From Elioraea rosea (lineage in GTDB: Bacteria; Pseudomonadota; Alphaproteobacteria; Acetobacterales; Acetobacteraceae), in contig NZ_VFAC01000005.1 of the NCBI RefSeq assembly GCF_007644105.1, positions 62,001 through 126,000 of the forward strand: a stretch of DNA of 64,000 nucleotides. Reading direction: 5' to 3'. This document shows positions 37,238-48,968 of the stretch, in pieces. Position numbers and translations under genes: made by a program. Every line of letters starts with the position of its first letter. The first letter of the stretch is position 1. Under the pieces are notes generated by a model. The model was not told the origin of the DNA, searched no databases, and was given only the letters and a program-made list of their open reading frames with translations.

Positions 37238-38077
37238 TCAGCCCTTGAGCGCGCCGGCCATCAACCCCGCGACGATGCGCCTCTGCAGGACGAGCACGAG
37301 TGCAACCAGCGGCAGGGTGACGATGACGGAAGCGGCCATGATGCGCCCCCACGGAAGCTCGAACCGGCTCGCGCCGCTGATCAGCGCGATGGCAACGGGT
37401 ACGGTGCGCTGCTCGTCTGTCAGCGTGAAGGTCAAGGCGAAGAGGAACTCGTTCCAGGCGATCATGAAGGCAAGCACGCCCGTGGTCGCGAGCGCGGGCA
37501 TCAGGAGCGGGAGGTAGACGCGGGTGAGCACGACGAAGGGTGTCGCCCCGTCGAGCATCGCGGCCTCCTCGAGCTCGCGCGGCATGGCGCGGAGGAACCC
37601 GGTCATCACCCAGACGGTGAACGGAAGCGTCAGGATCATCGTCGCCAGGACCAGTCCGGCGAGCGTGTTGTAGAGGCCGAGCGTACGGATGAGCTCGAAC
37701 AGGCCGGAGAGCACGGCAACCTGCGGGAACATCGAGACCGAAAGGATGCCTGCGAGCAGGAACCCGCGGCCGCGGAACCGCACACGGCCGAGCGCGTAGG
37801 CGGCAGGCAGGGCCAGGATGAGCGAGAGGGCGACGACCGCACCCGAAACGATCACCGAGTTGAGGATGTTGCGCGCGAAGGGTGCTTCGCGAAACACGGC
37901 GGCGTAGTTGTCGAAGGTCACCGAGCTCGGCAGGAGTGGCCCGCCGAGCTGATCGCCAGGCTTGATGGACGAGAGAATGGCCCAAGCGAAGGGGAACACC
38001 GTGTAGAGAACGAGCGCTGCGACGAGGAGGCCGAAGAGGGCGCGGCCGAGCGCGGCACGTGACCGTCGGCGCATCAC
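37238..38077 (-). CDS. Carbohydrate ABC transporter permease, MalG type
   Basis: This 279-residue permease has six hydrophobic segments and the MalG-type EAA loop ELEEAAMLDGATPFVVLTRV (20 residues), then YLPLLMPALATTGVLAF. TLTDEQRTVPVAIALISG fits the P3-P4 region of sugar permeases. It is the last gene of a minus-strand set: binding protein, MalF type, MalG type. No ATPase follows. Confidence 0.93.
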   Translation of the reverse strand: MMRRRSRAALGRALFGLLVAALVLYTVFPFAWAILSSIKPGDQLGGPLLPSSVTFDNYAAVFREAPFARNILNSVIVSGAVVALSLILALPAAYALGRVRFRGRGFLLAGILSVSMFPQVAVLSGLFELIRTLGLYNTLAGLVLATMILTLPFTVWVMTGFLRAMPRELEEAAMLDGATPFVVLTRVYLPLLMPALATTGVLAFMIAWNEFLFALTFTLTDEQRTVPVAIALISGASRFELPWGRIMAASVIVTLPLVALVLVLQRRIVAGLMAGALKG

Positions 38078-38979
38078 CCCGCCTCCTCGTCACCGGCGAG
38101 GCTCACGCGTCCGAGCGTCAGAAGCGCGGCGGCGAGGACGGCGATCGTCAGGAAGAGCAGGGTCGAGGCAGCAGAGCCCATGCCGACATCCTGGAAGTCG
38201 ACGAGCTGCTCGCGCGCGTAGACCGACATCGACGCGGTGGCGCGGCCGCTTCCGGCCAGAACGTAGATGAGGTCGAACACACGCAGGGCGTCGAGGCTTC
38301 GGAACAGGATCGCGACGAGAAGCGCAGGCCAGATCAGCGGCAGGGTTATGCGCCAGAACGCGCCGACCGGGCCGAGGCCATCGACCTCGGCCGCCTCGTA
38401 GAGCTCGCCGGGGAGCATCTGAAGCGCGGCGAGAACGAGAAGCGCCATGAAGGGCGTGGCCTTCCAGACATCGACTGCGATGATGGCGCCCAGGACGAGG
38501 CCCGGTTCGGCCGTCCAGGCGATCGGCGCACCGATGATGCCGAGCGAAAGAAGCCCCGCATTGATGACGCCAAGCTGGTCATGCAGCATCCAAGCCCAGA
38601 GCTGAGCGGAGACGACGGTGGGGATCGCCCAGGGGATGAGCATCGCTGCGCGCATCAGCCCGCGCCCACGCATCCGCACGTTCAGCACCAGCGCGATGAC
38701 GATGCCGAGCACCGTCTCGATCGCGACGGAGGCGACCGTGAACACCACGGTGTTCGACACGGCGCGCCACCAGTCGGGGTCGGTCACGAGGAAGGCGTAG
38801 TTCTCGAAGCCGACGAATGAGGCAGGCTCGAGATCGTCGAGCCGTGCGTCGGTGAAGGAGAACCAGATCGTCCGCGCGAGCGGCCAGAGCGCGACCAGCG
38901 CGAGCGCTCCCAGCAATGGTGCGAGGAAGACTGCCGCGGCCCGCCTGCGTTCGCGCGCGACGGCGCTGCCGGCTACCAC
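38074..38979 (-). CDS. Carbohydrate ABC transporter permease, MalF type
   Basis: This 301-residue permease has FLAPLLGALALVALWPLART near the N-terminus and the EAA loop ELYEAAEVDGLGPVGAFWRI followed by TLPLIWPALLVAIL. LVFGLIYVLAGSGRATASMSV-like text (here DLIYVLAGSGRATASMSVY) is the typical segment near the last helices. GTG 38979 starts it within the binding-protein stop (GTGGTAG overlap). Its stop overlaps the MalG-type gene (ATGA). Confidence 0.92.
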   Translation of the reverse strand: MVAGSAVARERRRAAAVFLAPLLGALALVALWPLARTIWFSFTDARLDDLEPASFVGFENYAFLVTDPDWWRAVSNTVVFTVASVAIETVLGIVIALVLNVRMRGRGLMRAAMLIPWAIPTVVSAQLWAWMLHDQLGVINAGLLSLGIIGAPIAWTAEPGLVLGAIIAVDVWKATPFMALLVLAALQMLPGELYEAAEVDGLGPVGAFWRITLPLIWPALLVAILFRSLDALRVFDLIYVLAGSGRATASMSVYAREQLVDFQDVGMGSAASTLLFLTIAVLAAALLTLGRVSLAGDEEAG

Positions 38980-43101: not shown

Positions 43102-44232
43102 ATGACCGAGCTCACCATCGCCGCGATCCGCGCCCATCCACTCCGCGCCACGCTCGCGACCGTGCAGCGGACGAGCCAGGGAGACTGGCCAGCGCTGGAG
43201 GTCGTGGCTGTCGAGGTCGAGACCGAATGCGGTCTCACCGGCATTGGCGAGTGCCTCGCGCGCCGCGGTGCAGCCGGCTATGCGCGCTTCATCGAGGCCG
43301 CGCTCGCACCGAAACTCATCGGCCGCTCGGCGCATGACAGGCGGGCGTTGTGGTCGGCGATGCGCGGCACGCTCACGGGCCGCACGGGCGGGATGCTGAT
43401 CGAGGCGATCGCCGGCATAGACATCGCGCTGTGGGATCTCGCGGGCCAGGCGGCGAAGCAGCCGATCTGGCGCCTGCTCGGCGGCGCAGGGCGGCGAAGC
43501 GTCGTCGCCTATGCCTCCTCGTTGAACTGGGGAGACAATGCGCGAGCGGAACAGGAGCTCGCCTCGGCGCTCGCGCGCGGATTCCGACAGGTGAAGGTGA
43601 AGATCGGCAAGCCTGCCGATGCGGCAATCCGCCGCGTGCGGATGCTGCGCAGGCTCGCGGGCGACAAGGTGATGCTCGCCGTCGATGCGAACTGGATCTA
43701 TGACGCAGACGAGGCGCTCGCCGTCGGCAAGGCGCTCGCTGATGAGGGCTATGGCTGGTTCGAGGAGCCGATCCATCCGGACGATCACGCGGGCTACAGG
43801 CACCTTCGCCGCCACCTGCCCGTGCGGCTCGCGGCAGGGGAGAGCGACTTCACGGCAGCCGATAGCGCCGATCTCGTGGAGGATCGCACGCTTGGTCTGA
43901 TCCAGCCCGATGTCGCGCGCTCGGGCGGCATCACCGAGACCTGGCGCATCGCCGAGCACGCGGCGCTGCACCACGTCGCCTATGCCCCGCATGTCGGCTG
44001 GTCTGGCGGGATCTGCTCGGCTGCCTCGGTGCATCTTGCCGCCGCGGCGGACAGCTTCCTCACCTTCGAGTGCATGGTATTCGACAACCCGCTTCGCCAG
44101 GCGCTGACGGTTCCCGTGCTCGGCGATGTCGGACGCCTCGAGGCGGACGGAACGCTTGCGGTGCCCGATACGCCCGGCCTCGGCGTAACGCTCGACCGCG
44201 AGGCCCTGGCGCGGCACCTGATCCGCGACTGA
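43102..44232 (+). CDS. Mandelate racemase/muconate lactonizing enzyme family protein
   Basis: This 376-residue enolase-superfamily protein has the KxK base in RQVKVKIGKP. Metal ligands lie in LAVDANWIYD (Asp), GWFEEPIHPDD (Glu) and LAAGESDFTAAD (Glu). The opposite-face His lies in YAPHVGWSGGICSAA. These enzymes abstract a proton alpha to a carboxylate: sugar-acid dehydratases, racemases or lactonases. The exact subgroup cannot be read. The permease genes start 2 nt after its stop. Confidence 0.93.
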   Translation: MTELTIAAIRAHPLRATLATVQRTSQGDWPALEVVAVEVETECGLTGIGECLARRGAAGYARFIEAALAPKLIGRSAHDRRALWSAMRGTLTGRTGGMLIEAIAGIDIALWDLAGQAAKQPIWRLLGGAGRRSVVAYASSLNWGDNARAEQELASALARGFRQVKVKIGKPADAAIRRVRMLRRLAGDKVMLAVDANWIYDADEALAVGKALADEGYGWFEEPIHPDDHAGYRHLRRHLPVRLAAGESDFTAADSADLVEDRTLGLIQPDVARSGGITETWRIAEHAALHHVAYAPHVGWSGGICSAASVHLAAAADSFLTFECMVFDNPLRQALTVPVLGDVGRLEADGTLAVPDTPGLGVTLDREALARHLIRD

Positions 44233-44234
44233 CG

Positions 44235-45104
44235 ATGCGCGAGGGTATCCTCACGCGGCTTGGCATGATCGCGCCCGCGCAGGGGCTGATCGCGGCCGTC
44301 ATCGCCGGGCCTGCGCTCTATCTCGTCTGGCTTTCCTTCCAGGCCTCTTCCTACGGCTCGGCGCCGAGCTTCGTCGGCTTCTCGAACTATGCGCGCGTCC
44401 TGGGCGATGCGTATTTCTGGCGCGCGCTCGGCAACACGGCGATCGTCGTGCTCGTCGTCGTCCATCTCGAGCTTCTGCTCGGGCTCCTGATGGCGCTTCT
44501 CTTCGCCTCCGGAATCCCCTTCCGCCGCGTCATGCTCGCGATCGTCATCGCGCCCTATGCGGTGAGCGAGGTGGCGGCGGTGGTGATGTGGCGCTTCATG
44601 ACCGACCCCGATGTCGGCCATGTCTCGGCGCTGCTGCGCGCGGTCGGGCTGCCGATGCTCGAGTGGTCGGTGGTGCCGGCGCACGGGCTCGTGCTCGTCT
44701 CGCTTCTATCGGTGTGGCTGCACCTGCCCTTCACCTTCCTGATCCTCTACGCCGCACGGCTCGCGCTGCCCGGGGAGATCTACGAGGCGGCGCGGATCGA
44801 CGGGGCGAGCCCGTTCCAGGCGTTCCAGCGCATCACCCTGCCGCTTCTCATCCCGGCTATCCTGATCGCGGCGCTGTTCCGGCTGATCTTCGCCTTCCGC
44901 CTGTTCAGCGAGGTTTGGCTGCTGACGCAGGGAGGCCCAGCGCGGTCGACCGAGGTGGTCGCCGTCTATCTCTATCTCGAGGCGTTCCGCTACAACGCGT
45001 TCGGCGGCGCGGCTGCGACGGGCTGGCTGATGGTGATCGGCTCGCTCCTTCTCGCAGCCCCCTATCTCATCCGTCTCCGCAAGGCGGCGCGCGATGCGGC
45101 GTAG
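44235..45104 (+). CDS. Sugar-type ABC transporter permease, MalF type
   Basis: This 289-residue permease begins MREGILTRLGMIAPAQGLIA. The EAA loop is EIYEAARIDGASPFQAFQRI followed by TLPLLIPAILIAALF. LLTQGGPARSTEVVAVYLYL fits the MalF/UgpA class. The next permease starts 11 nt before its stop. It likely pairs with that permease and with the binding protein at 40988-42265. Confidence 0.92.
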   Translation: MREGILTRLGMIAPAQGLIAAVIAGPALYLVWLSFQASSYGSAPSFVGFSNYARVLGDAYFWRALGNTAIVVLVVVHLELLLGLLMALLFASGIPFRRVMLAIVIAPYAVSEVAAVVMWRFMTDPDVGHVSALLRAVGLPMLEWSVVPAHGLVLVSLLSVWLHLPFTFLILYAARLALPGEIYEAARIDGASPFQAFQRITLPLLIPAILIAALFRLIFAFRLFSEVWLLTQGGPARSTEVVAVYLYLEAFRYNAFGGAAATGWLMVIGSLLLAAPYLIRLRKAARDAA

Positions 45105-45924
45105 CCCCCTCGTCACCCTCGGCAAGCTCGCCGCGCTCGCGCTCATCGCCGTGTGGTCGCTCGCGCCGATCGTGCTGATCGTCACCTCCTCGCTGAAGCC
45201 GGAGAACCAGATCTTCGCCGTTCCGCCGACGCTCGCCTTCTCGCCCACGCTGAAGCACTACGCGGCACTGCTCGAGCGCTGGCCGGACTTCTTCACTGCA
45301 CTCGGCAACAGTCTGATCGTGACGGCGGGGGCTACGGTGATCGCGCTCGCCGCCTCCATTCCCGCAGGCTACGCCTATTCGCGCTTCCAGCAGGGCTGGG
45401 TGCAGGGCTCGGCCTTCTGGCTGATCGTCGTGCGCCTGATCCCGCCCATCGTCGTCACCCTGCCGCTGTTCCCGCTCGTCAACGCGCTCGGGCTCGCCGA
45501 CACGCATCTTCTGCTCGCGATCCTCTACGCGACGTTCTTCGTCTCGCTCGGCGCCGTCGTGATGCGTGCCTTCTTCGACCAGGTTCCGCGCGAGCTCGAC
45601 GAGGCGGCGGCCGTCGATGGCGCGGGACGGTGGATGACCCTGATCCGCATCGTCGCCCCGCTCGGCGCGCAGGGGGCGCTTGCGGTCGCGGTGTTCGTGA
45701 TCGTCTTCGCCTGGAACGACTTCCTGTTCGCCTTCATCTTCGCCGCGACGCGGGCGAAGACGGCGCCGCTCGTTCTCTCCGAGATGATCGGCAATTTTGA
45801 CGGCGTCGATTGGGGCGTTCTGTTCGCTGCCGCCACCGTGCAGCTCGCCCCCGTGCTCGCCTTCGTCATCCTCGCGCAGAAGCACCTCGTCGCCGGGCTC
45901 AGTGCGGGCGCAACGAAGGGCTAG
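45094..45924 (+). CDS. Sugar-type ABC transporter permease, MalG type
   Basis: This 276-residue permease has SLAPIVLIVTSSLKPENQIF near the N-terminus and the EAA loop ELDEAAAVDGAGRWMTLIRI, then VAPLGAQGALAVAVFVI. VFAWNDFLFAFIFAATRAKT and QKHLVAGLSAGATKG at the C-terminus are typical MalG features. It ends the operon; the next gene on the other strand ends 3 nt beyond. No MalK-type ATPase is in the window. Confidence 0.93.
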   Translation: MRRSPLVTLGKLAALALIAVWSLAPIVLIVTSSLKPENQIFAVPPTLAFSPTLKHYAALLERWPDFFTALGNSLIVTAGATVIALAASIPAGYAYSRFQQGWVQGSAFWLIVVRLIPPIVVTLPLFPLVNALGLADTHLLLAILYATFFVSLGAVVMRAFFDQVPRELDEAAAVDGAGRWMTLIRIVAPLGAQGALAVAVFVIVFAWNDFLFAFIFAATRAKTAPLVLSEMIGNFDGVDWGVLFAAATVQLAPVLAFVILAQKHLVAGLSAGATKG

Positions 45925-45926
45925 CG

Positions 45927-46580
45927 TCAGGGCGGCGGCGTGCCGAGAAGCACTGGCCCCTCATGCCGCACGGCAAGCCGCGTCAGCGGCGCGGGAAGGC
46001 CGCCAAGGTCGCGCGCGGCGGCACGCTGCGCCCATCCGGTCTCGTCCACCACCGCCGTCGCCTCCTGGTCGACTGCGGTGATCACGACGTCGCCGAACAG
46101 CAGGCGCTCGGAACGGGCCTTCAGCAGGAACGTGCCGGCATAGAGGAGGGGCACGCCCGCAGGCACCGCGAGCCGCCAGCGCGGCACGGTCCTGTACCGC
46201 GCGCCGTAGGTGAACGCGTCTGTGCGGCGCGCACCCTGGATGGCGAGGTAGTAGTAGCCGGGTGCAAGGAGGAACACGATCAGCCCCTCGCCCTGCGCCG
46301 CCTCGCCCGGACTGCGCGCCGGCCACCGTCCCGGTTCGGGCAGCCCGCCGCTGTCGAAGTCGCCGAGCGCGAGGCCGAGGCTGTCGTCGCTCAATCCCGC
46401 CGAGAAGGGCGCGACCTGCTCGCCCGCCTCGTTCGTCACCACGAAGCGGAGCATGACCGCGGCCGTCTCGCCGCGCCGGATGGAGGCAAGCATGCTCTCG
46501 TCCAGCGGCCCGACGACCATGCAGCCTGCGAGCATCGGCAGGGCGGCGAGAACGAGACGCCTAGGAACAGGGCTTGCCAT
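45927..46580 (-). CDS. Putative lipoprotein of unknown function
   Basis: This 217-residue protein starts MASPVPRRLVLAALPMLAGC, a lipoprotein signal with Cys20. The mature part looks beta-rich: AAVMLRFVVTNEAGEQV, GLIVFLLAPGYYYLAIQGAR and VPLLYAGTFLLKARSERLLF. It resembles short surface-exposed beta-sandwich lipoproteins, but I cannot name a family. It overlaps the upstream lipoprotein gene by 20 nt, so the two are co-translated. Confidence 0.75.
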   Translation of the reverse strand: MASPVPRRLVLAALPMLAGCMVVGPLDESMLASIRRGETAAVMLRFVVTNEAGEQVAPFSAGLSDDSLGLALGDFDSGGLPEPGRWPARSPGEAAQGEGLIVFLLAPGYYYLAIQGARRTDAFTYGARYRTVPRWRLAVPAGVPLLYAGTFLLKARSERLLFGDVVITAVDQEATAVVDETGWAQRAAARDLGGLPAPLTRLAVRHEGPVLLGTPPP

Positions 46581-47043
46581 CCGCCCAGCCTCTCAGGAAG
46601 TCGCCGAACACGCTCGTCATCGGCCGGGTGCACCGTTCCGCACGCGTCACCGTTCCGGTGTCATCGAGCTGGATCAGCAGGAGATAGTGCGTCGGCACGT
46701 CGGCGATGCCGCCAGCGGCCCGGTATCCACCCGCGACGAGCCAGAGAAGCTTCAGGTGCACGCGGTCCCACGCATAGACGAGGATGCGCCGCTCCTCCCA
46801 GAGCGCACCTGGCTCGCCCAGGCGCTCGACAACCGCGGCGCGCGACCGGCCGAGAAGCGCCGGCACCTCGTTTGCCGGCAGCAGCACCTCGCGCCCCTCC
46901 GTCACCTCGCCCTCACCCATCGGCAGGGGAATGACGACGCAGCCGGCGAGCAGCAGCGCAGCGGCTGCAGGCCAAAGCGAGCCGGACCAGAGCGAGCCAG
47001 GCCAATGGCAGGCGTCCTTGCGGCGAGGGGTGGCGAACACCAT
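46561..47043 (-). CDS. Putative small lipoprotein, possible SmpA/BamE-like repeat
   Basis: This 160-residue protein has a long N-region followed by LWPAAAALLLAGC (lipobox, Cys35). The mature part includes PALLGRSRAAVVERLGEPGAL followed by WEERRILVYAWDRV, quoted in pieces. That G-x(6)-V-x-x-LGxP pattern resembles the SmpA/OmlA repeat of BamE-like proteins. The evidence is a short motif only. Downstream lies the second lipoprotein (20-nt overlap). The divergent region carries an FNR-like site. Confidence 0.7.
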   Translation of the reverse strand: MVFATPRRKDACHWPGSLWSGSLWPAAAALLLAGCVVIPLPMGEGEVTEGREVLLPANEVPALLGRSRAAVVERLGEPGALWEERRILVYAWDRVHLKLLWLVAGGYRAAGGIADVPTHYLLLIQLDDTGTVTRAERCTRPMTSVFGDFLRGWADGKPCS

Positions 47044-47078: not shown

Positions 47079-47092
47079 ATGATCCAGATCAA
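47079..47092. promoter_or_regulatory. FNR/FixK-type palindrome between lipoprotein and SbmA-like genes
   Basis: The minus strand reads TTGATCTGGATCAT, 13 of 14 bases of the FixK/FNR box TTGATCTGGATCAA. It lies 36 nt upstream of the lipoprotein start (47043) and 98 nt upstream of ATG 47190. The core TGATCTGGATCA is identical to that at 17406-17417. It overlaps the earlier candidate ATG 47079, which argues against that start. Confidence 0.6.
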
Positions 47093-47189: not shown

Positions 47190-48968
47190 ATGCACACCGA
47201 CACGCCTTCGGCGATCATCGACCGTATCGGCCAGCACGGCGCCCTTCGTGCGCGCTTCGCTGCCCGGGTCCATCCCGGGCCTGCGGACCTGCGGATGCTG
47301 CGGCTGCTCGCAGGCATCTTCCGCACCGAAGCACGCTGGCGCGCGGTCGCGCTCACCGCCGCGATCATCGTCGCCACCGTTGCACTCATCGTCCTGATGG
47401 TGCGGTTCGCCATCTGGAATGGCGACTTCTTCGATGCGATCGAGCAGAAATCCTGGCCAGGCCTCGTGCGCCAGGCGTGGATGTTCGCAGCCATCCTCGC
47501 CGGCGGGATGATCACCCATGCCGCTGCGCTGCAGGCACGGCGCATGCTGCAGATTACGCTGCGCCGCCACCTCACCCTGGCGCTGATCGACACCTGGATG
47601 GCCGATGGCCACCACGCAAGGCTGCGTGACGTCGCGCCCGGGCTTGCCAACGAGGATGGTCGCATCGCCGAGGATGCCCGCGTGGTGTGCGAGCTGATGG
47701 TCGATTTCCTTGCCTCGCTCCTCTACGCGCTTCTGCAGTTCGTCGTGTTCGTCGGCATGCTGTGGCTGAGCTCCGGCCCGCTGAGGCTCAGCGCGGGTGG
47801 CATCGCGGTGACCGTGCCGGGCCACATGGTCTGGGTGGCACTGTTCTATGCCTCGCTCGGCGCGGCCATCACCATCCGGGTCGGCCACCCCCTCGTACGC
47901 GCGACCGACAGGCGCCAGACAGCCGAGGCCGCCTTCCGCGAAGGACTCGTCCACGCTGTCTCGCGCTCGGCCACCATCGCGCTCGGCCGGGCCGAGCCAG
48001 GAGAGAGGCGGCGCCTCGCAGGGCGTTTCGCTGCCGTGTCATCCACCTGGGCGGAGCAGACGATCTCCTTCCGGCGGATGACCTTCTTCACAGCAGGCTT
48101 CGGCTTCCTCACGGCCGCGCTGCCGATGCTCCTGCTCGCGCCACGGCATTTTGCCGGCGACATGAGCCTCGGCACGCTGATGCAGGTCACCGTCGCCTTC
48201 GGGCAGGTGACGGCGGCGCTGTTCTGGATGTCCGACAACTACCCGTTCATCGCGCAATGGGAAGCCTCCGCGGCGCGCGTGCTCGCTCTCCACGAGGCGG
48301 CATCGGACATCGGCGAGGAGCAGGAGACGGATCGGCCAGGCGAGATCGAGCGCGTCGCCAAGAACGGGCCGGGGCTTTCCTTCCTCGACCTCAGCCTCGT
48401 CTCCGCTTCGGGCGAAGTGCTTGTGCGGCGGTTCAACGCCTCCGTCGCACCGGGGGAACGACTGCTCGTCGAGGCGACGCCGCCGGCAGCGGCCGCGCTG
48501 TTCCGTGCCGTCGCCGGGCTCTCGGCCTGGGGAAGCGGCACGATCGAGCTGCCGGAGGGCGCCGTGCCGTTCTTCCTCGGCGAGCGGCCCTATCTTCCCG
48601 AGGCGACGCTCGCAGAGATCCTCGCCGACCCGCGCGCGCCAGGAGAGGTCTCCCGCGCGCAGATGACGGCTGCGATGGTCGAGGCGGGCCTCGCGGCGCT
48701 GATCCCCTCTCTCTCCGTCGCCGCCGCCTGGGAACAGGAGCTGAGCGTCGAGGACCAGCAGCGCCTCGGCATCGCGCGCGCCATCCTGCACCGGCCGGCA
48801 TGGCTTTTCATGCATGACGCGATGAGCGCGCTCGATGCGGAGCAGGAGGACCGCCTGATGGGCGTTCTCGTCGCCTCGCTGCAGGGCTCTGCGATCGTGA
48901 CCATCGCGCACCGTGCGGCGCTCGACCGGTTCCACCAGCGTCGCATCGCGCTCACCCGCGCGGGGTGA
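47190..48968 (+). CDS. SbmA/YddA-like ABC membrane protein with degenerate ATPase domain
   Basis: This protein of about 592 residues has the SbmA/YddA-type membrane domain: FAIWNGDFFDAIEQKSW, QARRMLQITLRRHLTLALID, VGHPLVRATDRRQTAEAAFR and FRREGLVHAV-like text. An ABC-shaped C-terminal half follows. Its nucleotide-binding motifs are lost: the P-loop position reads EATPPAAAALFRAV with no GKS, the signature is LSVEDQQRLGIARAI (Gly to Glu), and Walker B reads WLFMHDAMSALD (Asp to His). Only the switch region IAHRAAL persists. ATP hydrolysis is therefore unlikely. ATG 47190 is preferred; ATG 47079 lies in the FNR-like site. Confidence 0.85.
   Translation: MHTDTPSAIIDRIGQHGALRARFAARVHPGPADLRMLRLLAGIFRTEARWRAVALTAAIIVATVALIVLMVRFAIWNGDFFDAIEQKSWPGLVRQAWMFAAILAGGMITHAAALQARRMLQITLRRHLTLALIDTWMADGHHARLRDVAPGLANEDGRIAEDARVVCELMVDFLASLLYALLQFVVFVGMLWLSSGPLRLSAGGIAVTVPGHMVWVALFYASLGAAITIRVGHPLVRATDRRQTAEAAFREGLVHAVSRSATIALGRAEPGERRRLAGRFAAVSSTWAEQTISFRRMTFFTAGFGFLTAALPMLLLAPRHFAGDMSLGTLMQVTVAFGQVTAALFWMSDNYPFIAQWEASAARVLALHEAASDIGEEQETDRPGEIERVAKNGPGLSFLDLSLVSASGEVLVRRFNASVAPGERLLVEATPPAAAALFRAVAGLSAWGSGTIELPEGAVPFFLGERPYLPEATLAEILADPRAPGEVSRAQMTAAMVEAGLAALIPSLSVAAAWEQELSVEDQQRLGIARAILHRPAWLFMHDAMSALDAEQEDRLMGVLVASLQGSAIVTIAHRAALDRFHQRRIALTRAG

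Follow-up and report, generated by a model that had tools for sequence, protein, structure and literature searches.

A YddA/BclA-type half-transporter of Elioraea rosea belongs to a group of alphaproteobacterial proteins with a replaced ATPase site

Introduction

A gene of Elioraea rosea encodes a protein that looks like an ABC half-transporter and has lost the residues expected of an ABC ATPase. It lies in a 64,000-nucleotide stretch of DNA, which was analysed as a whole and is called the window below. The question raised by this locus is whether such a protein is a decaying transporter, a step on the way to SbmA, or a stable form of its own. SbmA, according to a 2026 study (PMC13316013), derives from a YddA-like ancestor and carries a ladder of glutamates (E193, E203, E269, E276, E287, and E378); E203 and E287 are given there as absent from YddA. 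The first-pass annotation had described a member of the YddA/SbmA superfamily with a destroyed ATPase domain and had suggested that it could be an intermediate form toward SbmA. Here we follow up this suggestion by comparing the protein with its relatives, with solved structures, and with SbmA.

Results

The reading frame is open from an ATG at 47190 to the stop codon at 48966-48968, and its codon-position composition is that of a real gene (features are listed in Table 1). A second in-frame ATG lies upstream at 47079, but the alignment with the orthologue L021 begins at the M1 encoded at 47190. In Pfam, the protein matched PF06472 (ABC_membrane_2; E 2.8e-27, 96.2 bits, cut-off 24.4) and PF05992 (SbmA_BacA; E 4.4e-18, 66.2 bits, cut-off 24). 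The PF05992 match does not discriminate SbmA/BacA membership, because canonical YddA/BclA relatives match this family too. PF00005 (ABC ATPase) was not matched at E 0.001. The closest solved structure over nearly the whole length was mycobacterial Rv1819c (6tqe, E 1.6e-41), with ABCD proteins next. The C-terminal domain aligned end to end with Rv1819c, the P-loop, signature, and Walker B residues being replaced. Superfamily membership is supported by both Pfam matches, the Rv1819c match, and the membrane-domain tree described below. More narrowly, PF06472, this tree, and the predicted fold of the nucleotide-binding domain (NBD) place the protein in the YddA/BclA ABC family by descent.

Table 1. 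Features of the half-transporter gene, in window coordinates
Feature	Coordinates	Strand	Remarks
Half-transporter gene P0001, YddA/BclA-type, dead ATPase domain	47190..48968	+	Open frame, 592 aa
Transmembrane domain, residues 45-372	47322..48305	+	Pfam span 43-320; long helices in model
Gly157, replacing Gln of the NPDQRI segment between TM2 and TM3	47658..47660	+	
Glu161, aligned with SbmA ladder E193	47670..47672	+	Acidic in all rows, all groups
Asp240, clade-typical acid one residue from the SbmA E269 column	47907..47909	+	
Glu246, aligned with SbmA ladder E276	47925..47927	+	Glu in every row, every group
Pseudo-ATPase domain (NBD), residues 386-592	48345..48965	+	AlphaFold of domain alone; structure matches
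Former P-loop (Walker A), residues 426-438, one residue short, without Lys	48465..48503	+	
Glu465, replacing the Q-loop Gln (GERPYLP)	48582..48584	+	E/D in 8/8 group I; Gln in 44/44 canonical
Former signature LSVEDQQR, Gly replaced by Glu521	48741..48764	+	Glu in 8/8 group I; Gly in 44/44 canonical
Former Walker B WLFMHD, Asp replaced by His542, catalytic Glu by Asp543	48801..48818	+	
H-loop His574 (IAHR), kept	48909..48911	+	

We aligned 74 different family proteins, of which 30 lacked the P-loop Lys (called dead here) and 44 had it (canonical); this proportion is not a prevalence, since the set was gathered by best matches. The dead proteins comprise group I (8 proteins, including that of the window), group II (19 proteins), and group III (3 proteins). 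Left out were L063 from a Hyphomicrobium MAG, whose frame is broken and whose visible motifs look canonical, and duplicates under two identifiers (L050, L051, L054, and several of L064-L113 and L118-L138). L068 ends at a contig edge and was used for motif counts only.

The motifs read in the window protein are GERLLVEATP-PAAAALFRAVAG (P-loop), ELSVEDQQR (signature), and LFMHDAMSALD (Walker B). In all 30 dead proteins the P-loop segment is 13 residues long and free of Lys; in all 44 canonical ones it is 14 residues long and includes the Lys, and no mixed P-loop occurred among the 74. In group I (8/8), neither the conserved Gly residues nor the Ser and Thr of GKST are left in the segment, three proteins having Thr at the Ser column. 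His542 is found in 8/8 group I proteins at a position that is Asp in 44/44 canonical proteins, and position 543, which is Glu in every canonical protein, is D in five, E in two, and A in one protein of group I. The H-loop His was kept in 7/8 proteins of group I, 1/19 of group II, and 0/3 of group III, compared with 44/44 canonical proteins. The D-loop SALD is kept in the window protein, with Asp549 in just 2/7 group I rows, and the Q-loop Gln is kept in all three group III proteins. Over all 30 dead proteins, the counts of retained residues were 0 for the P-loop Lys, 0 for the Walker B Asp, 1 for the signature Gly, 2 for the catalytic Glu, 8 for the H-loop His, and 4 for the Q-loop Gln; each of these residues is present in 44/44 canonical proteins. 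The lesions are not due to chance, because they are shared by all eight group I proteins, with the same Glu521 and His542, and the canonical residues are intact in 44/44 proteins. Judged by its sequence, the window protein lacks these marks of a functional ABC ATPase: the Walker A GxxGxGKS/T, the signature Gly, the Walker B Asp, and the catalytic Glu.

The three replaced motifs quoted in the first-pass annotation (P-loop, signature Gly, and Walker B Asp) were therefore real and, as the 8/8 count indicates, common to group I. Its list was incomplete: it lacked the replacement of the Q-loop Gln by Glu and of the catalytic Glu by Asp, the P-loop shortened by one residue, and the kept IAHR and SALD. 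The former ATP site of group I has been re-fixed on E428 (8/8), E/D465 (8/8), E521 (8/8), H542 (8/8), and H574 (7/8). Excess conservation at this site was not significant (12 of 16 positions versus 90 of 179 elsewhere, p 0.07). From these residues and the change at position 157 described below, we infer that the role of the domain was altered, perhaps toward gating.

Among 299 genomes of the window's family, the nearest relatives of the protein were found in G001 (76% identity), G196 (61%), and G152 (57%). The window genome itself, G000, is a 4.49-Mb assembly. The gene is present in two of three genus genomes and absent from G002, which makes its distribution patchy. A named collection yielded 14 loci: six of group I, six of group II, one canonical, and one broken. 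The named group I sources are Elioraea tepidiphila, an Elioraea MAG, Falsiroseomonas bella, a Phreatobacter MAG, and two Hyphomicrobiales/Rhizobiales MAGs; those of group II are Roseomonas and Neoroseomonas species and a Rhodospirillales MAG. When 397 family genomes were searched with a profile built on the ATPase domain of group I, five matched with E 5.4e-103 or better, followed by a match at 1e-59; in a class-wide draw of 385 genomes, the same profile found only the window's own genome and G610 at E 1e-54 or better. For group II, 12 of 249 family genomes had a match with E 1e-70 or better, and the group III proteins come from G610 and G774, which belong to another family. The dead proteins span at least two orders of Alphaproteobacteria. 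Homologues with the same replacements, for which the first-pass annotation had proposed a search, do exist: the 8 proteins of group I share them, and 30 proteins have the short Lys-free P-loop. Intact close relatives combined with frameshifts, which it had named as signs of recent decay, were not encountered: the relatives at 76, 61, and 57% identity share the lesions in near-full matches without internal stops. By sequence, then, the observation is larger than first stated and concerns a whole protein group, not a one-off. In the literature searched, we recognised no group of YddA/BclA proteins with a dead ATPase, which is no proof that it is unpublished.

Two further dead proteins deserve mention. 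The window genome has a distant paralogue, L002 (G000:C41:2700-4304), which belongs to group II and has also lost the H-loop His. In G774, two group III proteins are encoded in the same direction about 1 kb apart (L131:3916-8828) and may form a heterodimer of dead halves.

The membrane-domain tree was built from 57 rows hand-chosen out of 98, long rows included, and was rooted on SbmA/BacA; because it rests on the membrane domain alone, it is blind to the state of the ATPase. Groups I, II, and III fell together among YddA/BclA proteins (support 100/99), the split of the dead proteins from the others being a branch of an unrooted tree whose status as a clade needs a root outside the dead proteins. 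SbmA and nine alphaproteobacterial SbmA/BacA proteins formed a separate group (100/100), with the window protein outside. A long-branch warning applied to YddA, L061, L103, and BL151, and YddA stood next to SbmA. In the SbmA/BacA rows L150, L154, and L155, stops lay inside the matches and we kept just the open piece; L155 was among the tree rows. When a tree was built from the ATPase domain without its motif columns (46 rows), a single dead group was again obtained (94/92, not starred). The simplest reading of these trees is one loss of the ATPase followed by long retention. Since the dead group lies among YddA/BclA proteins and SbmA/BacA stand apart, this looks like a parallel loss, reached separately. 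An ancestor of SbmA, or an intermediate toward it as had been suggested, is unsupported by the membrane-domain tree.

Selection on the dead domain was estimated from pairs of relatives, YN00 values for both domains being at hand in 6 of 12 pairs. For the window protein and its nearest orthologue, YN00 gave a dN/dS of 0.098 for the membrane domain (dS 1.15) and 0.111 for the NBD (dS 1.35); the NG86 values for the same pair were 0.229 and 0.265. The NBD values by YN00 were 0.06-0.09 in group II (two pairs) and lower in canonical pairs, 0.03-0.05 (three pairs). Two more distant group I pairs gave NG86 values of 0.33 and 0.45 for the membrane domain and 0.39 and 0.36 for the NBD. The ratio of NBD to membrane-domain divergence was 1.13 in group I (7 rows), 1.43 in group II (10 rows), and 0.83 in canonical proteins (14 rows), and mean identity within group I was 0.58 for the membrane domain versus 0.53 for the NBD (21 pairs). 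Many residues that are conserved in canonical NBDs outside the active site are also conserved in the dead ones. The low dN/dS and the kept core, set against the relatively faster divergence of the NBD, indicate that constraint is relaxed but still strong. These substitution patterns indicate that the dead ATPase domain is under purifying selection. The view that an intact frame speaks against simple decay was strengthened by the lesions common to relatives and by dN/dS well below 1.

An AlphaFold model of the NBD alone (14-row alignment, one row canonical) had a pLDDT of 91.1 and a pTM of 0.87. It matched the Rv1819c NBD with a TM-score of 0.87 and an rmsd of 2.3, and the ABCD1 NBD with Z 23.4 and an rmsd of 2.3 over 204 residues. 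The dead domain is thus predicted to keep the ABC fold, in agreement with the first-pass annotation. The arrangement of the domains in the full-length model is unreliable, because its pTM is 0.56; full-length structural matches had rmsd values of about 14 to 23, and domain-level matches alone were used.

The membrane domain of the full model matched SbmA (9g3d) with Z 21.3 and an rmsd of 3.1 over 305 residues. ABC transporters tied at the same Z over both domains, but with an rmsd near 17. Before TM1 the model has only short helices (residues 6-13, 20-23, and 32-45), and almost nothing in the protein corresponds to the N-terminal ~60 residues of SbmA. Position 157 is Gly in 22/23 dead proteins of the tree set and Gln in 24/24 canonical and 10/10 SbmA/BacA proteins; it lies in the NPDQRI segment, which we take to be the coupling-helix region. 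Group I also has changes at columns 257 and 261, ahead of TM5.

Just two of the six glutamates of the full SbmA ladder (E193, E203, E269, E276, E287, and E378) are matched in the window protein, namely E193 and E276. The E269 column is Thr. The neighbouring position 240 is acidic in 22/23 dead proteins of the tree set and in 0/24 canonical ones; over all dead rows covering the region the count is 26/29, three group II rows having Asn. The alignment contained no equivalents of E203 and E287 in the window protein. The equivalent of E378 is lost in group I (Gln in 6/7) and is Glu or Asp in 23/24 canonical proteins. With Asp240 off the E269 column and the E378 equivalent lost in group I, a convergent SbmA ladder was found only weakly. 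An acid at residue 168 was dropped as a clade-specific feature; 14/24 canonical proteins also have one. The partial ladder speaks against a copy of the SbmA ladder, and proton coupling by other residues or downhill transport may be possible.

We also looked for partners of the dead protein. In G001 (99% complete, 5% contamination), the single protein matching PF06472/PF05992 is the dead one. The window genome has two such proteins, both dead; 18 further matches at E 0.001 cover the C-terminal domain only. Neither genome therefore has a canonical partner of the YddA/BclA family, and a heterodimer with a canonical family member was rejected for both, within the scope of PF06472/PF05992 and other ABC families apart. 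G196 has two family members and G152 four, one being dead in each. Canonical members of other group I genomes number three in G152, one in G196, and one in G288, where the one family protein found is canonical and the dead protein runs off the contig end.

Gene neighbourhoods were compared for the window and six named loci; genes were picked in the window and five of the loci, and ten proteins were checked with Pfam. In none of these neighbourhoods did a second family member turn up, and the gene order was shared with the Elioraea relative only. In the window genome, the gene has two small divergent genes upstream of it and a convergent rsmI downstream. Two of the six named loci (L053, by Pfam ABC_tran, and L052, by eye) have a free ABC ATPase gene within 10 kb, about 5 to 8 kb off; these genes look like parts of importer operons.

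Several other genes were seen near these loci. The two small divergent genes of the window, 45927-46580 and 46561-47043, adjacent on the minus strand, encode small proteins that look lipoprotein-like by eye and have no Pfam match at E 0.001. Two genes at 44070-45924, by eye ABC importer permeases, adjoin an enolase-superfamily-like gene, and the opposite strand carries a related pair at ~37241-38979. Near L050, L051, and L062 there are Pfam Iso_dh or Aconitase-family genes, read as leuB/leuC-like, in unlike arrangements. Of these, Aconitase-family (LeuC-like) genes are near the group I gene in L062:11768-13414 and L051:6365-9592, the latter also with Iso_dh (LeuB-like), and their order differs. 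TctC receptors near L052 and L062 are likewise in unlike arrangements.

Discussion

We consider it fairly probable that the protein transports without ATP, as a YddA/BclA-type homodimer of the inner membrane that retains a pseudo-ATPase domain. It would assemble as a homodimer, and its two membrane domains would alternate as they do in SbmA and ABC exporters. The drive would be an ion gradient, most likely of protons, or the substrate gradient alone, and the pseudo-ATPase domains would act on the dimer as a clamp or gate on its cytoplasmic face. A first guess at the substrate, from the kinship of the protein, would be a hydrophilic compound resembling a peptide or a vitamin. The ATP site is destroyed across the group and yet the domain is conserved; the transporter is therefore probably ATP-independent. 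This reading is also favoured by the absence of any other family member in G001 that could supply an active site and by the resemblance of the membrane domain to that of proton-driven SbmA (Z 21.3). Earlier work reports that LmrA without its NBD carries out ethidium-proton symport without ATP (PMC2704374) and that facilitator mutants of TAP are known (PMC10960864), so proton coupling or downhill transport is physically reasonable. As reported for mycobacterial BacA (PMC10960864) and for BclA (PMC12003926), transport by these relatives needs ATP hydrolysis, and a dead ATPase could therefore simply mean no transport. The partial ladder, the relatively faster divergence of the NBD with lower dN/dS in canonical pairs, the patchy gene, and the free ATPase genes near two of the named loci also count against the reading, and a partner could come from another ABC family. 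A bolder version, which we regard as doubtful, is that in this group a YddA-type ABC transporter was converted to ATP-independent transport for a second time and independently. The NBD would have been kept as a pseudo-ATPase clamp, and the group I site rebuilt into a His/Glu site (E428, E/D465, E521, H542, D/E543, and H574) that may bind metal and gate the transporter.

Other explanations have to be weighed against the ATP-independent homodimer. The protein could be the degenerate half of a heterodimer, as in TmrAB, TAP, and CydDC, or could borrow a separate ATPase subunit. Degenerate half-sites are common in heterodimeric ABC exporters, and canonical family members do occur in G152 (three), G196 (one), and G288 (one). 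Against a heterodimer, G001 has no other PF06472/PF05992 protein, the only other one of G000 is also dead, and the neighbourhoods compared (window and six named loci) contain no second family member. The degenerate halves of known heterodimers usually keep the P-loop Lys, which none of the dead proteins has. A borrowed subunit could come from the free ATPase genes within 10 kb in L052 and L053, but these look like importer operon parts, and we think both versions distinctly unlikely. We hold it very unlikely that the remodelled domain still binds a nucleotide or another phosphate compound without canonical motifs and thereby powers or gates transport. The H-loop His and an acid at 543 (each in 7/8 group I proteins), the Q-loop Gln of group III (3/3), and the SALD of the window protein would fit such binding, although Asp549 is present in 2/7 group I rows. 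They are countered by the group I P-loop, short and without Lys, conserved Gly, and Ser/Thr of GKST in 8/8 (three with Thr at the Ser column), by the Glu in place of the signature Gly in 8/8, and by an H-loop His in just 1/19 group II and 0/3 group III proteins.

It is also conceivable, if unlikely, that the protein has given up transport and serves as a membrane sensor or regulator, with a ligand in its cavity or in the remodelled ATP site, that signals to or scaffolds other proteins. Such a role would agree with the loss of the ATPase in a protein of kept domain order and predicted fold and with the re-fixing of the group I site on E428, E/D465, E521, H542, and H574. The clade-wide change at column 157 and the group I changes at columns 257 and 261 point the same way, as does the requirement of canonical mycobacterial BacA for ATP hydrolysis in transport (PMC10960864). 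However, no constant signalling neighbour was seen, the gene order being common to the Elioraea relative only (ten proteins with Pfam), and conservation within group I is higher for the membrane domain than for the NBD (0.58 versus 0.53, 21 pairs). Recent decay into a pseudogene on its way out was rejected on the shared lesions and the low dN/dS, and we give it almost no credence. The lost catalytic motifs, the somewhat faster divergence of the NBD than in canonical relatives, and the patchy gene, absent from G002, could be read that way. Yet 30 proteins, from two orders at the least, have the short Lys-free P-loop in common, both domains show a dN/dS well below 1, and no internal stop was reported in the search matches of the dead relatives, the named dead loci being open over the whole match.

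Compared with known systems, the protein shares with YddA/BclA ABC transporters the domain order, the PF06472 membrane domain, the predicted NBD fold (TM-score 0.87), and the tree position. It differs in its P-loop, Q-loop, signature, Walker B, and catalytic Glu, which are replaced here and intact there (44/44). Heterodimeric exporters such as TmrAB, TAP, and CydDC likewise have catalytic residues replaced in a folded NBD; in these, one composite site stays active, whereas G001 and G000 have no canonical family partner. The protein differs from the YddA/BclA transporters also in that BclA (PMC12003926) and mycobacterial BacA (PMC10960864) need ATP hydrolysis. With SbmA/BacA (SLiPT), the dead group shares the membrane-domain fold (Z 21.3) and a presumed ATP independence. 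SbmA has no NBD and has extra TM0 helices and the full glutamate ladder; the dead group has kept the NBD, has a partial ladder, and lies on a separate branch. LmrA-MD, an engineered protein without NBD, also uses an ABC membrane domain without ATP. It is a laboratory truncation (PMC2704374), in contrast to the dead group, which is natural, retains the NBD, and is known here from sequence. We thus see in the group, probably, a natural and conserved ABC-type transporter, homodimeric and without a working ATPase, as a parallel case to SbmA and not a step toward it.

In the current view (PMC13316013), SbmA-like transporters go back to a YddA-like ABC protein from which the ATPase domain was lost. 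The dead group suggests another stage and another route: the ATPase site died, most simply once, and the domain stayed, in at least two orders of Alphaproteobacteria. Its members may be annotated as ATP-driven transporters, which calls for caution. With this group, one can ask in a natural system what an ABC membrane domain does in the absence of ATP, whether proton coupling can arise via non-ladder residues, and why a pseudo-ATPase domain is kept.
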